Part shown: piece by piece, positions 26,248 through 31,648 of the stretch
How the letters are laid out: each line of letters begins with the position of its first letter
Numbering within the stretch: the first letter of the stretch is position 1
From: Paraburkholderia largidicola
GTDB lineage: Bacteria > Pseudomonadota > Gammaproteobacteria > Burkholderiales > Burkholderiaceae
Direction: 5' to 3'
NCBI RefSeq assembly: GCF_013426895.1
Contig: NZ_AP023176.1
Coordinates: forward strand, 1,736,001-1,800,000
Length of the DNA stretch: 64,000 nt
The notes under the pieces: generated by a model
Seen by the model: the letters and a program-made list of their open reading frames with translations, nothing else
What the model was told of the DNA's origin: nothing
Databases searched by the model: none
Program-made: the position numbers and the translations under genes

Positions 26248-26576
26248 GGCAGTCACTACCTCGCGTGTATCGTGGTGTGGCTACTATGCAGGATTTTCTG
26301 GCGTAAGAAAAACGCGTAATCTGGATCGGAACGATCAGGTTTTCTGATAGCGCGATCGGGGCGAGCGATGCCGCGCGAATCGGCGTCGTTTGCAGGCTAG
26401 CAGAAGCGCTTGTGTGCAGTTGTCGGCGCTCGCGCGCTCAGGTTCAAGCGCAGCCACACCATGACCATCGTGATGTGTTCGAATTCGTCCTTCCGTGGTT
26501 TCCCGATATCGACACTATGTGCCGCGCGTTAGCAGGCAAGACACTCAACGAGTAGCCACGAACACTGATCGTCGCT
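26248..26576. other. intergenic region
   Basis: Between the alpha/beta hydrolase start and the tpsB stop. No open frame with recognisable content and no clear terminator hairpin seen. Confidence 0.35.
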
Positions 26577-28331
26577 TCAGAATTGGGCCGTCATCTGAAA
26601 TCCCACTGTCACGCGAGCTGTTGGGAACCCGGCCGGCTTGTAAATGGGCGTACCTGCAAACAGGTCATACGCAAAGCCTGCAATACGTGTCGGCAGGCTG
26701 CCGCGAATGCCGATTACAGCACCCGCCAGTTGTGTGCCGGCGAGAAACGCCGTGTTAGGCCCATACACGTGCCCATAGTCGATTCCCGCATAGAGCGCCT
26801 GCCCCGTCTGTCCGATAGCCCATTGCAGTTCATTTCGCCAGTAAAACCCCTTTTCCGCCGCGAGCATCGTCTCGCCATCGAAACCGCGAACCGTATACCG
26901 GCTGCCGATAGTCAGGTCGTCGATATAGAACAAGGTGTCGTTCGTGAACTGGCCGTGCACTGTGCTCACGTACCGGAAGTTCTGCTTTGCAACGGCGAAA
27001 GGTACGGAAAGATTCGCGTCGACCACGGCCATATGGAAGCGATACGTCGGACCATCAGGATACGGATCCGACGTCGCGCCCAGACCGCCGACGCCCTGAC
27101 GATACGCAAGCGTGCCGTCGAATTGCGCAGCACCAAAGTAATGACGATCTGTCAGGCCCGCTTCGATGAAGGTGTTGTCGCGCTTCTGTGTCGGGATGCT
27201 TGTGTCGTCGATGAAGCTCTCGCCGAAGCGCTTCGATAACTGAAGCTGCATACCGAACACATCGTTCTGGCTGCGAGACAGAACTCGCGCCAGCCTGAAC
27301 GCTGCAGTCTGCGAATTGCCGCTCGACACGAACGTCTGGTTCACGCCAGCGATCTGCTCGTAGTAGGTATTGGTGTTGCCCGAGAGCGTCGCTGTCCAGT
27401 AACCCCATGGCACGGAGTAAGAGCCATTGAATCCATGCGAGCCCAAACGCTTGTCGCCCAACTCGAGATCCTGATTGGCACTCAATGCGAGCACGTCGTT
27501 AAGACCCAGTGGATTGTCGAGGCCCAGGCTCAGATTGCCCTGCAGTTTGCCCGTCGCGCGCGTGCCCGAGTTGTCGACGGATGCGACGACACTCCATGGC
27601 TTGGTGCGCTTTACGTCGATCACCACATCGCTTTCTCCAGGCGATGAAGTTGGCTCGATCTTCATGTTCACGTCCTGACTCGCGACGCGCTTCATCTGTT
27701 CGAGGCCCTGTTCGAGATCGCGCAGATTCAACATATCGCCATCGCGAGCGGGGAATGCAGATTTCCATGTCCCACGCGTGTCCGGACTGGCGAAGCGCAG
27801 GTGACGCACGACTCCGGGTACGAGTGCGACCCTTAGCGTGCCTTTCGATACGTCCTGCTCGGGCAGCAACACGCGGGTCGTGATGTACCCGCGACTCAGG
27901 AGGAGTTGCTGCACGCCCTTGGTGAGAATGTCGAAGCCCTGCTTTCCGATGCATTGACCCGCGTAGTGATTGAGCCATTCCCGCGCGAATGCAAAGCGGT
28001 CGAGTGGCAAAGCTGATGCGCCCTGCTTGCGGATCGCATCGGGTAATGTGTCGGGCACGTCGAGCGCGAATGTATCGATACGAAAGCATGGCGATTCGGC
28101 GGGAAGCACGGGAAAGCCGTCGGCCTTCGGCGCAGTCGAGCGTACTGCCGGCGCGTTGACCGCCTGGGCTCGCTGTTGTGCGTCGCGTTGCTGCTGCACC
28201 TGCTGATTCTGTTCAGCGTTCGCGCGTGCAGCGGCAACCGTGTCTGCAGGAGTTGGCGCCTGCTGCGCCTGGCCCGTTAGTGATATCAGGGCTGTGAGCG
28301 GGAGTGCCGCCAGCCTCTTTCTGGTTTTCAT
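26577..28331 (-). CDS. two-partner secretion outer-membrane transporter TpsB (ShlB/FhaC/BcpB family)
   Basis: A 584-residue Omp85-superfamily pore that exports a large TpsA exoprotein. Signal peptide at residues 1-22; then a polar Gln-rich plug helix (EQNQQVQQQRDAQQRAQ, about 38-54); two POTRA domains from about 80 to 235 (CFRIDTFAL, LLLSRGYITTRVLLPEQ); then a 16-stranded barrel with the conserved tip motif VRGFDGE near residue 485 and a C-terminal Phe needed for Bam recognition. Length matches BcpB/CdiB. It is the last gene of a minus-strand run whose order (exoprotein stub, small protein, lipoproteins, TpsB) mirrors Burkholderia bcpAIOB. Its cognate exoprotein is almost wholly missing, so it may have no substrate in this strain. 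Confidence 0.9.
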   Translation of the reverse strand: MKTRKRLAALPLTALISLTGQAQQAPTPADTVAAARANAEQNQQVQQQRDAQQRAQAVNAPAVRSTAPKADGFPVLPAESPCFRIDTFALDVPDTLPDAIRKQGASALPLDRFAFAREWLNHYAGQCIGKQGFDILTKGVQQLLLSRGYITTRVLLPEQDVSKGTLRVALVPGVVRHLRFASPDTRGTWKSAFPARDGDMLNLRDLEQGLEQMKRVASQDVNMKIEPTSSPGESDVVIDVKRTKPWSVVASVDNSGTRATGKLQGNLSLGLDNPLGLNDVLALSANQDLELGDKRLGSHGFNGSYSVPWGYWTATLSGNTNTYYEQIAGVNQTFVSSGNSQTAAFRLARVLSRSQNDVFGMQLQLSKRFGESFIDDTSIPTQKRDNTFIEAGLTDRHYFGAAQFDGTLAYRQGVGGLGATSDPYPDGPTYRFHMAVVDANLSVPFAVAKQNFRYVSTVHGQFTNDTLFYIDDLTIGSRYTVRGFDGETMLAAEKGFYWRNELQWAIGQTGQALYAGIDYGHVYGPNTAFLAGTQLAGAVIGIRGSLPTRIAGFAYDLFAGTPIYKPAGFPTARVTVGFQMTAQF

Positions 28332-28397
28332 TACTTGCGTGTATGGCGTGTAGCGGAAAGGCGGGAGATACGTGTGCCCGCCTTACCTATGCGTCGT

Positions 28398-29039
28398 TCA
28401 GGGACCAGTCTTGACCGGCCGGGCGGCTCGCACGGCGTCATCATCCGGGCATTTCGATGCAGGTGAGAGCTTCACGGGTTCGTCCATGCCGTGACCATCG
28501 ATGCGGCGAGCCGAAAGCCAGCACTGTCTGCCGTTGGAATCCTGGAAGACGTCGTAGTCCTGGCCCGCGACGGGTGTGAAGGTCATCGCAGGCGGTGAGC
28601 AGGAGTAGGAAACGGTCCCAGTCGACGAATGTACATTCGACGAAATCGTGAGTGGCTTTCCTGCTTCAACGACATATTCCTTGATCATGTCCTTGAAGTT
28701 CAAACCCTCTACACGCATAAAGGAACGTGGACTGGATGGCATGCCGATGGTCACGCTATGTGACGAGTACTTCCAGGCAGCGAGATATCCATCGTCTACC
28801 TCAATTGCATCAGGGTCATTCTCCCAGGCACTGCGGTAGCAGACGCTGTTCGGTCGGAAAGACGTGCTTTTCGTGCCGTTTCCGGTTAGAAATCGGATGC
28901 GAGATGAAACCGCTGGATCGTACCTCGGACTTGTTTCCGTCACGTGATGCGCGGGTTGGAGAAACGTGCACGCTGAGACTGAGGCGACGACAGCTACTGT
29001 GAAGAGCGCCGCGGCTGCTCTGTGCGATGCGAAAAACAT
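28398..29039 (-). CDS. putative lipoprotein (BcpO position), paralogue of the next
   Basis: A 213-residue protein with a lipoprotein signal: hydrophobic AALFTVAVVASVSAC ending in a lipobox-like SVSAC, lipidation expected at Cys 24. The mature part has paired cysteines and ends in a Lys/Asp-rich tail. The block KPLTISSN ... YSCSPPAMTFTPVAGQDY ... RQCWLSARRIDGHG ... PVKL recurs in the lipoprotein at 29426-29920, so the two are ancient duplicates. It lies 66 bp upstream of tpsB, the position of bcpO in Burkholderia contact-dependent inhibition loci. Function of this lipoprotein class is not established. Confidence 0.7.
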   Translation of the reverse strand: MFFASHRAAAALFTVAVVASVSACTFLQPAHHVTETSPRYDPAVSSRIRFLTGNGTKSTSFRPNSVCYRSAWENDPDAIEVDDGYLAAWKYSSHSVTIGMPSSPRSFMRVEGLNFKDMIKEYVVEAGKPLTISSNVHSSTGTVSYSCSPPAMTFTPVAGQDYDVFQDSNGRQCWLSARRIDGHGMDEPVKLSPASKCPDDDAVRAARPVKTGP

Positions 29040-29425
29040 TATTCTTCCCCGAAACTTGGTTTATTTGTATAAAGTGGCTTTGGGTCACTTTGTTGTCGTG
29101 CGTGCGTCATTCGCTTCGACATTGACGTAAGAGGTGTCGGCAGCGGAACAGAACAGCTGGCGACGCTCACATGCCCGCGCTGTCCCAATGTCAGAAACGA
29201 TCGATTAACTTACTTTACGACGCTAAACTCGTCTGCACTTAGGATTGAAACCCGGTGAGTGGCTGATGACACCGTATTCCACGCGCGACAAAGTCGCGGT
29301 AAAAAAGAGAGATTCTTACTCGCAAGGACACGCTCCGAGTCGTAGTCTTCGCAGCGCCGGCCATTCTTTTTCATCGTGGGTAATTCATTAATCTACGGCA
29401 AGATCGAGCGATTCTTTAAGCGGCT
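29040..29425. other. intergenic region, lower GC
   Basis: A gap between the two lipoprotein genes that is clearly more AT-rich than the flanks. It probably holds a promoter for 28398-29039. No coding content recognised. Confidence 0.35.
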
Positions 29426-29920
29426 TTAGCGAAATTTGATGCAAGTAATACCGGCTTGCTGTGGGCGCAATTCCTTTAACTTGACCGGTTTGACCGGCAG
29501 ACCATCTGCATCGACCTCCACCACACTCACGATGCATTGTCGGTCATGTATGTGGATCATCGACTGCAGGAAAGGGACACCCGGATCGGATGGCTTGTGA
29601 CCCTCCACAGCCACCAGCCGGTAATGAACGTCTCTCTGCGGCGTGAACGTAGCAGGCAGCATGCATACGTTCTCCTCGTAGGAGATCACGAGTGGTTTGT
29701 CAGGGACAACCTTCACAGGCATCGCACCCGGGCTGCCATCGACGTAGGTCTTGCCTGCGTAGCAACCTTTCTCGTTCAAGGTCAGGAGATAGACGGCCTT
29801 GCTTTGAATCTGAAGTTCTGCAGATGGCTCCGAGTCCTTGGGAAAAGGATACGGATGGCCTACAGTGCTGCATCCAGTCAGCGACAAGGCTGCATAAAAT
29901 GTAAATAATTTCCAGTGCAT
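29426..29920 (-). CDS. putative lipoprotein (BcpO position)
   Basis: A 164-residue lipoprotein: short signal MHWKLFTFYAALSLTGC with a textbook lipobox LTGC (lipid on Cys 17). The mature region contains KPLVISYEENVCMLPATFTPQRDVHYRLVAV-like and RQCIVSVVEVDADG segments shared with the lipoprotein at 28398-29039. It lies between the candidate immunity gene and that paralogue in the remnant contact-dependent inhibition locus. GC content is lower than the chromosome around it, consistent with horizontal origin. Role unknown. Confidence 0.7.
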   Translation of the reverse strand: MHWKLFTFYAALSLTGCSTVGHPYPFPKDSEPSAELQIQSKAVYLLTLNEKGCYAGKTYVDGSPGAMPVKVVPDKPLVISYEENVCMLPATFTPQRDVHYRLVAVEGHKPSDPGVPFLQSMIHIHDRQCIVSVVEVDADGLPVKPVKLKELRPQQAGITCIKFR

Positions 29921-30045
29921 TGTATCTTATAGATTGATCGAAATTCTTCTTCTCGCACCGTGCGTCACACGCCCCCACGAGCTTCTTTCGCGAATCACAT
30001 TTTTCTTCAGTTATCGGACATCATTGAGCAACCCAATACTTCCCC

Positions 30046-30438
30046 TCAAAAATCTTTAAGATAATGCGTTCCGTGGCGGTCGCGCATGGCGCACACCGAC
30101 TCGTACTGAAATGAAAGCACCCACCTGGAGAAAACGATCTCATCTATGGTACGCAGAAAGTCGTGCAGTTGCGAACTACAATCTGCAAGTCGGTCATTGA
30201 CATAGACAAATACGATCCTGCTTCCCACTGCCCAATCTCCATGGAAATCCTCTGCTTTGGGTTTTCCCTCTAACGCCGAACATTCTTCGTACGAGTAAAA
30301 CATATTGGAAATAGGAAAATTTCCGTGGATTTTCGGCTGCTTGTCCAGAATCGCAGTCGCACCTGTACTTTCGAGGATCCTGACAATTTTCGCGGATTCG
30401 ACTCCACGCTCGATTTCAAGCACCATCATGATCGACAT
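30046..30438 (-). CDS. candidate contact-dependent-inhibition immunity protein (CdiI/BcpI position)
   Basis: A 130-residue soluble acidic protein without signal peptide or membrane segment and with no family that I recognise. It starts at ATG 30438 (MSIMMVLEIERG), overlapping the 3' end of the exoprotein stub by 13 bp, exactly where a cdiI gene sits behind cdiA. AT-rich codon use is typical of immunity genes. The lack of recognisable homology also fits, since these proteins are highly polymorphic. If so it is an orphan immunity gene, kept after loss of its toxin. Other small cytoplasmic roles are not excluded. Confidence 0.5.
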   Translation of the reverse strand: MSIMMVLEIERGVESAKIVRILESTGATAILDKQPKIHGNFPISNMFYSYEECSALEGKPKAEDFHGDWAVGSRIVFVYVNDRLADCSSQLHDFLRTIDEIVFSRWVLSFQYESVCAMRDRHGTHYLKDF

Positions 30439-30875
30439 ACCCTATTCCCCCAATACCGTAACAACACCATTTTTGCCTGCTGCGTGTTGACAATGGTCGG
30501 CGAGTTGTTCAGGACCACGCCTGCCTTCGGCACGTCGAACCGGGTGTAGCCATTGATCGACACCCCCGCTGCCGAAGGGAGCGTGACGTTGACCTGCTGG
30601 ATGCCGTTCGCGGTCTGGATGACCGTCGGCCGATGCGCGCCCGCGTTCGGGTCGGCGACGACCTGTGCGAACGCGGTCGACATGCCGACGACAATCACAC
30701 CCGTCGCTGCGGCGACAGCTCGTAGCAACCACGGCGAAGAACTTCGCTCCGCGACGGATGCGACAGCAGTTGTTTCGCCCTGGTTCTTTTTTCCAGTCGC
30801 AGCGGCGGTTTCCTCGACTGCGACCAGCATTCCCCGGATCCGGCTGAATACCAGCCGGAAAGCTCTCTTGTTCAT
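30426..30875 (-). pseudogene. truncated two-partner secretion exoprotein (CdiA/BcpA, ESPR plus start of TPS domain)
   Basis: Only 149 codons of what is normally a gene of 8-10 kb. Residues 1-30 (MNKRAFRLVFSRIRGMLVAVEE...) are a classic extended signal peptide region, followed by a hydrophobic signal core (LLRAVAAATGVIVVGMSTAFAQ) and the opening of the haemagglutination-activity/TPS domain (VIQTANGIQQVNV, RFDVPKAGVVLNNSPTIVNTQQ). Homology stops there; about 16 unrelated residues (KMVLLRYWGNRVC) lead to the stop. In another frame the same bases read KNGVVTVLGE and stop 4 bp before the immunity start, which could be the last codons of the lost toxin. An internal deletion is the simplest explanation. 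Confidence 0.85.
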
Positions 30876-31237
30876 TTTTTATGCGTGCGGTAGTTCTGGA
30901 AAGCGCGCGCAATGTATCAGAAACATTTAGTAACAACTGTCAAATCATGCAAGCAATGCAACATCTCATGCGGATTGCATTTGGGAATCTAGAAGCGCTC
31001 TGGATGGCGCGGCGCAGCCCTTCGGGAGGAAAAGGCCGTAATTGATGGCGATGCCGTTCGGCCTCGCCGGTGGTCTGTTCGCGTGCGAGCCCGAACCGCG
31101 AATTGCGCGGAACTCAGGCGAAGGTCTGCTCGTTTTTAGATTGACGATGGTCCGCGCATTGACGCCGACGTTGGCGAGCCCTACTTCTGCGCTTCGCGCG
31201 TCGAAGTGATCGCTTCTACGATTCGTCGCGATGGTGT
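30876..31237. other. intergenic region upstream of the exoprotein stub
   Basis: Should hold the promoter of the bcpAIOB-type locus. The first 100 bases are AT-rich. The remainder is GC-rich and may contain degraded coding sequence, but no family could be recognised in any frame. Confidence 0.35.
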
Positions 31238-31648
31238 TTATGCACCGACTTCGTACGGCAACACCTGCTCCGTCTCATCAGGACGATTACGCGCAACAAC
31301 CGCCCGCGCCGGCTCCGTCGTGCTGAGATTGAACGGCTGATGCGGCACGCCGGGCGGAATGAACAGAAAGTCCCCGGCTTCCGTCACGATCGACTGACGC
31401 AGGCCCGGCCCGTAACGCGTCTCCACACGCCCTTCGAGCACATAGATTCCCGTTTCATAACCGCAGTGAATGTGCGGCTCGGCGTGTCCGCCGGGCGGAA
31501 CGACGACGAGATGCATCGACAGTCCCTGCGCGCCCGCCGTCGTTGAAGAAATGCCGACGAAGTACGGCAAGCGCTGCGTCGTGGCAATTTCCCTGTCGGG
31601 ACGCACGACGACGAGTTGCGCGAGTTCGCGTTGTGAATCGTCTTCCAT
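31238..31648 (-). CDS. cupin-domain protein
   Basis: A 136-residue single cupin. Motif 1 is in GGHAEPHIHCGYETGIYVLEG near residues 63-83 (two His and a Glu in the H-x-H-x(n)-E pattern) and motif 2 is DFLFIPPGVPHQPFN near 103-117, giving a likely metal site. Start ATG 31648 (MEDDSQREL) follows GGGAGAA at good distance; the upstream in-frame ATG at 31744 overlaps the neighbouring divergent region. Small cupins of this kind are sugar-binding, dioxygenase-like or regulatory proteins; function here unknown. Confidence 0.8.
   Translation of the reverse strand: MEDDSQRELAQLVVVRPDREIATTQRLPYFVGISSTTAGAQGLSMHLVVVPPGGHAEPHIHCGYETGIYVLEGRVETRYGPGLRQSIVTEAGDFLFIPPGVPHQPFNLSTTEPARAVVARNRPDETEQVLPYEVGA

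Follow-up and report, generated by a model that had tools for sequence, protein, structure and literature searches.

Introduction

The closest described relatives of the locus analyzed here are the Burkholderia bcpAIOB contact-dependent inhibition (CDI) loci, in which an exoprotein gene (A), an immunity gene (I), small open reading frames (ORFs) and a transporter gene (B) follow one another, the exoprotein opens with ESPR and TPS domains, and the transporter is of the TpsB type (PMC3415462). BcpO is 73-74 amino acids (aa) long in lipobox alleles and 57-172 aa, allele-specific and without a signal in others, and B. thailandensis requires bcpO for full CDI (PMC3415462). Truncated bcp genes are already known: the bcp-4 locus of B. 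dolosa AU0158 carries truncated bcpB and bcpA copies beside intact genes (PMC10449530), and C-terminally truncated CdiA occurs in three Stenotrophomonas strains (PMC11893273). Orphan cdiA-CT/cdiI modules and orphan immunity production have also been described (PMC3150448). Here we describe a locus of this type at positions 26577 to 30875 of a 64,000-nucleotide stretch of Paraburkholderia largidicola (the window; NZ_AP023176.1, positions 1,736,001 to 1,800,000), in which the exoprotein gene has been reduced to its first 134 codons by an internal deletion.

We consider it probable, from sequence comparison, that this Burkholderia-type CDI locus lost its weapon through that deletion, that its predicted immunity protein was kept, and that its TpsB may help to secrete a paralogous BcpA encoded elsewhere in the genome. 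The kind of locus is known and the particular case is new; no survey of Paraburkholderia loci that lost the exoprotein but kept the transporter was found among the literature matches listed, most subscription papers being outside reach.

Results

An internal deletion in the exoprotein gene

The locus begins with a minus-strand BcpA/TpsA stub ORF of 149 aa (30875-30426). Its first 134 codons (30474..30875) are 84% identical to residues 1-134 of the BcpA of congener G134, and Pfam finds ESPR (9.8e-12) and a TPS domain cut off after its first quarter (4.2e-9, positions 1-66 of 252). The remaining 15 codons and stop (30426..30473) are out of frame and overlap the start of the next gene. The initial annotation had thus given the correct ORF length, 149 codons, for an exoprotein part of 134 codons, the last 15 being out-of-frame toxin tail and immunity start.

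Read in the alternative frame, the scar at 30442..30474 (minus strand, out of frame with the stub) is the final ten codons of a CdiA-CT toxin, KNGVVTVLGE*, whose stop lies 3 nt ahead of the ATG of the immunity gene. A near-identical tail, KNGVVTVIGK*, precedes homologs of the immunity protein in congeners G117 and G075 (L046, L047), and among the window's 106,049 stop-free six-frame 10-mers only 1 scores equally high. The deletion lies inside the exoprotein gene, and both of its ends are visible: it starts after TPS codon 134 and stops where the final ten toxin-domain codons begin. From the exoprotein start to the TpsB start the window measures 2.5 kb, as against 11.6-11.9 kb in G134 and G107, and judging by these relatives the lost segment would be about 9 kb, presumably removed in a single event. 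The long beta-helix and toxin C-terminus of the full BcpA architecture are missing. When the window was searched by tblastn (E<=1) with the exoproteins of two congeners and of the paralog, only the stub and one weak match (E 0.34) were returned, and the toxin ORF of G117 gave no match under the same threshold.

Comparison with relatives bore out the initial reading of the locus as decayed, with every other gene kept: the exoprotein of the locus is open in G107 and G134, at 3,155 aa (from the homologous ATG) and 3,169 aa, a toxin C-terminus scar adjoins the immunity gene, and the immunity, lipoprotein and TpsB frames are intact. In G021 the exoprotein is broken, matching G134 residues 1-718 and resuming from 1681 in another frame; downstream of it lie Imm49 and a sub-threshold YezG-like match.

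The genes downstream of the scar

The initial annotation had listed an exoprotein N-terminus, a small protein, lipoproteins and a TpsB in that order, and all five ORFs were found on the minus strand where it placed them. The BcpA-I-(O)-B order on one strand is that of a Burkholderia-type CDI locus, so the proposed match to bcpA-I-O-B held for the order of A, I, small ORFs and B; it did not hold for the lipoproteins, which are unlike the published BcpO description. A block of about 100 bp ahead of the stub (30876..30975, minus strand) is conserved in an alignment with the bcpA genes of three congeners, and the TTGACA that it includes marks a candidate promoter; a sigma-70 consensus scan of 26300-31300 listed no minus-strand promoter. 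None of the five locus proteins had a PADLOC match at E<=0.1.

Directly after the stub, and overlapping its end, comes a 130-aa CdiI/BcpI-type protein (30046..30438, minus strand). It occupies the place of BcpI, and its cognacy to the lost toxin is indicated by position and homology; we judge it likely that it acts as an immunity protein. In G117 the toxin that precedes the immunity homolog and ends in the near-identical tail is a PF18451 CdiA_C toxin matching chain A of PDB entry 4G6V, a CdiA-CT/CdiI pair of the PD-(D/E)XK family (PMC9086364), by sequence; for the window the connection is the shared ten-residue tail alone. The modelled window protein resembles chain B, the partner of chain A, in a match tied with unrelated folds, and no sequence similarity to that immunity protein was found. 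Pfam at E<=1 assigned no family to the immunity protein or to either lipoprotein, NCBIfam and a PDB profile search gave nothing usable for the immunity protein, no relative was found in a scan of genome contigs, and a weak match in G141 was set aside, no CDI context being recognized around it. G117 (L046) carries a series of C-terminal exoprotein fragments with small ORFs after them, an arrangement resembling arrayed orphan toxin/immunity modules.

Two lipoprotein genes follow on the minus strand, LP164 (29426..29920, 164 aa, lipobox LTGC) and LP213 (28398..29039, 213 aa, lipobox VSAC). The two are related: a profile alignment of mature LP213 with mature LP164 scored 39.1, whereas none of 30 column-shuffled controls exceeded 18.0, and the profile match had a probability of 96% with the signals included. 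LP164 has 18 database relatives at E<=0.001 and is 96% identical over 148 aa in G021. Relatives of LP213 at the same threshold occur in 24 of 144 genus genomes, the window's included, and it is 88-94% identical in G021, G107 and G134; at E<=1e-20, 15 of 24 matches in the genus lie within 1 kb of a TpsB match, and 2 of the other nine are at contig starts. Judged by length and signal, neither protein is BcpO, since at 164 and 213 aa, both with lipoboxes, they fall outside the published lengths; NF045617 was likewise rejected for LP164 (14.5 bits, far under the 43-bit cut-off). LP213 may nevertheless play BcpO's part.

The last gene, at 26577..28331 on the minus strand, encodes a TpsB/BcpB outer-membrane transporter of 584 aa in an intact frame, 95-97% identical in G021, G107 and G134. 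The VRGF motif and terminal Phe noted earlier are present, as are two POTRA domains, and Pfam recognizes POTRA_2, POTRA_3 and ShlB (1e-102), the composition expected of a BcpB.

A second locus in the same genome

The genome (G000) comprises 9.47 Mb, and the locus lies on contig C3. About 300 kb off (G000:C3 1455595-1466948) a second locus contains an open 2,941-aa BcpA with ESPR, TPS and haemagglutinin repeats, two small proteins and its own TpsB. Between its BcpA and TpsB (L016:14417-15090) are proteins of 88 and 136 aa, candidate immunity genes that sub-threshold Pfam matches suggest may be membrane proteins; no lipoprotein was noticed there.

The two TpsBs are 79% identical, their POTRA domains 76% and 91%, and the paralog's TPS domain is 75% identical to those of G134 and G107, taken as proxies for the window's lost TPS. 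In B. dolosa the BcpBs share about 80%, with POTRA domains at 74% and 93% and the BcpA-1 and BcpA-2 TPS domains at 76%; all four BcpAs are secreted by BcpB-2 and BcpB-3, and strains lacking the full transporter set show weaker CDI (PMC10449530). The similarities in the window's genome thus equal those of partly interchangeable transporters.

A genome-wide search at E<=0.01 found six TPS-domain matches and four ShlB matches. Two TpsA genes with no TpsB nearby, of the kind that the initial annotation had suggested looking for, lie on contig C1, where the nearest ShlB match is 1.3 Mb away. A 682-aa ORF on C1 (L018:4626-6674, minus strand) combines ESPR, TPS 1-114, HMW1 domain 2 and part of glycosyltransferase 41; it adjoins a 1,566-aa TpsA, and no ShlB match was found nearby.

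Insertion site and arrival

The whole block of 4,885 bp (26353..31237, no strand assigned) is missing at this site in G047, G106, G134, G107 and G077, in which the flanks lie 36 to 1,068 bp apart. Therefore the locus most likely arrived here by insertion; loss of the block in the five congeners is not the likelier reading. G+C is 51-59% in kilobases 26-31 of the window, compared with 60-67% for the stretch at 21-26 kb and 61-63% for that at 31-35 kb. The gap in G047, G106 and G134 (L056, L057, L058) holds an element of 0.8-1.07 kb, mostly a long imperfect inverted repeat.

The three closest loci, in G107, G134 and G021, sit at other genomic sites, and the window's immunity protein had no match in them. 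The absence of an immunity match beside a TpsB of 95-97% identity is, on the sequences compared, the familiar swapping of toxin and immunity genes within an otherwise conserved locus.

Truncation in the genus

Using the stub and TpsB as queries, we searched the 144 genomes, scored the best candidates per genome, and paired an exoprotein start with a full-length TpsB when both were on the same strand and within 25 kb. All 150 exoprotein matches listed and 134 of the 150 transporter matches listed were used, the 16 dropped being those at 47-50% identity. Full-length TpsBs numbered 115 of 134; 84 were paired and 31 unpaired, the latter lumping contig breaks with diverged starts. Exoprotein frames reached at least 2,000 aa in 69 pairs and were shorter in 15. 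Nine of these 15 have an A-to-B distance under 8,677 bp, the minimum among the 69 long pairs; the remaining six may result from frameshifts or sequencing errors. Two of the nine, with 1,781 aa (G119) and 1,334 aa (G107 contig 88), are shortened yet stay open to a C-terminus and may work. Of all 84 pairs, the window's has the shortest exoprotein frame and also, at 2.5 kb, the smallest A-to-B distance; the median for the 69 long pairs is 10.8 kb. Among the six loci whose TpsB is at least 88% identical to the window's (G000, G021, G134, G107, G077, G071), three have short exoprotein frames.

Of 17 truncation stretches taken, three at contig ends (both G025, G068) were left out. G038 resembles the window in layout, with a stub, a short tail unmatched in the exoproteins compared and an ORF two bases on. 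The left ends of the truncated exoproteins of the window (30474), G038 and G123 lie at most one or two codons apart, following TQ-x-AG, G038 and G123 being related alleles. We predicted beforehand that a deletion hotspot would appear as an excess at codons 135-139 among the matches listed from 398 genomes of the family. Thirteen short-frame stretches were fetched, four of them cut by contig ends (two G242, two G321); by eye, seven of the nine examined were deletion-like and two frameshift-like, and one deletion (G266, about 137) lay inside the predicted span. The excess was not confirmed, and the hotspot remains a lead.

In G041 (L071:821-6079) and G003 (L072:723-4889) Pfam finds TpsA ESPR and TPS domains fused in frame to a TpsB barrel, in ORFs of 1,752 and 1,388 aa; G102 (L083), read by eye, is similar. 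These are apparently autotransporter-like chimeras made by deletion between neighboring genes.

Selection on the remaining genes

Pairwise ratios of non-synonymous to synonymous substitution (dN/dS) against G021, G107 and G134 were 0.05-0.08 for TpsB, 0.15-0.28 for LP213 and 0.19-0.25 for the stub, the last over 136 codons of which two are non-homologous; LP164 gave 0.23 (against G021). The stub has no stop and no sign of faster decay, and for that reason the deletion is probably recent on the dN/dS scale and the retention of the other genes cannot be called selected.

Discussion

The sequence of events that we favor starts with a Burkholderia-type CDI locus, probably gained by insertion. An internal exoprotein deletion of about 9 kb would have spared the upstream block, the start and leader of the immunity gene and all downstream genes; the immunity, lipoprotein and TpsB genes therefore came to lie about 9 kb nearer the operon start. 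The immunity protein, its own toxin gone, may neutralize a 4G6V-type toxin (PF18451, PD-(D/E)XK nuclease family) of neighbors, the stub product is probably unsecreted and degraded, and TpsB would stay a working pore able to help secrete the open BcpA 300 kb away. Since the similarities equal those of B. dolosa, cross-export is plausible here despite the inactive or weak BcpBs of that species, and as a spare exporter for the paralogous BcpA the window's TpsB is a tentative possibility that falls somewhat short of an even chance.

Several observations weigh against this account. One of the four B. dolosa BcpBs is inactive and one is active only when overproduced, and TPS similarity had no strong link with secretion efficiency and did not predict it (PMC10449530). 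The paralogous BcpA comes with a TpsB of its own, which may make the additional pore redundant, and because Pfam recognizes no toxin domain at that BcpA's C-terminus, it is only a putative weapon. On the immunity side, the 4g6v_B fold match is tied with matches to unrelated folds, and 4g6v_B was absent from the hits of a sequence profile search at E<=1. Finally, because the stub lacks extra decay, purifying selection cannot be assigned to the time since the deletion, and nothing in the dN/dS values shows that the remaining genes were retained by selection.

The last point is the core of the strongest alternative, plain recent decay, in which a young deletion has left the other genes intact for lack of time and none is now under selection. 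The stub stays in frame and stop-free for 134 codons with a dN/dS like that between relatives, decay recurs across the genus and takes several forms (truncation in 15 of the 84 pairs, and partial TpsBs), and no test run contradicts it. Three-point arithmetic assigns to TpsB on the window's own branch about 7 non-synonymous against 51 synonymous changes, but that branch may mostly predate the deletion. We regard this alternative as unlikely, yet as a serious competitor. More speculative, and somewhat less likely again, is an adaptive conversion, in which bcpA deletions ending short of the immunity gene repeatedly yield immunity-plus-exporter units in Paraburkholderia with several CDI loci. If that were true, the freed BcpB and lipoproteins would raise secretion of the remaining BcpA while the antidote is retained, and the 15 truncated pairs and in-frame TpsA-TpsB fusions would be stages of the process.

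Retention of TpsB for the two C1 TpsA genes would fit the excess of TPS over ShlB matches and the 1.3 Mb separating the pair from its nearest ShlB; it is very improbable, as the C1 TPS domains are only 17-26% identical to the BcpA type, and published CdiA TPS domains that are not interchangeable share 46%. We give as little credence to an assembly artefact, in which a full-length gene was collapsed at about 30470. BcpA genes are long and repetitive, but the contig spans 2.34 Mb in an assembly of 5 contigs, other genomic DNA resembling window 29000-31200 is only 70-80% identical over 75-135 bp, and the right side of the junction is a toxin tail unlike the C-terminus of the paralogous BcpA. That the 149-aa product has its own job, for instance as an occupant of TpsB or a secreted peptide, is scarcely credible: ESPR, signal and TPS start are in frame and G038 is laid out similarly, but 66 of 252 TPS positions and no beta-helix are left, and unsecreted TpsA fragments seemed to be degraded in B. 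dolosa (PMC10449530).

Read as a locus that lost its weapon and kept its antidote and exporter, the window departs from each described system. Compared with Burkholderia bcpAIOB loci (PMC3415462), it has an exoprotein of 134 codons, and lipoproteins of 164 and 213 aa in place of one BcpO of 73-74 aa. In B. dolosa AU0158, which also has several BcpBs with similar identities among transporters, the truncated bcp-4 copies lie inside a complete locus (PMC10449530), whereas the window locus has no other exoprotein. Orphan modules share with it an immunity gene without its own deliverable toxin, but they normally keep the toxin and lose the N-terminus (PMC3150448), the reverse of what is seen here.

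It is usually the exoprotein that leads to the discovery of a CDI locus. On the strength of this case and the genus count, transporters and antidotes may outlive the toxin often enough to affect predictions of which strain inhibits which, and a strain may be able to secrete more than the number of its toxins implies. With its two BcpBs and a single open BcpA of this type, the genome is a natural test of the shared-transporter model of B. dolosa.

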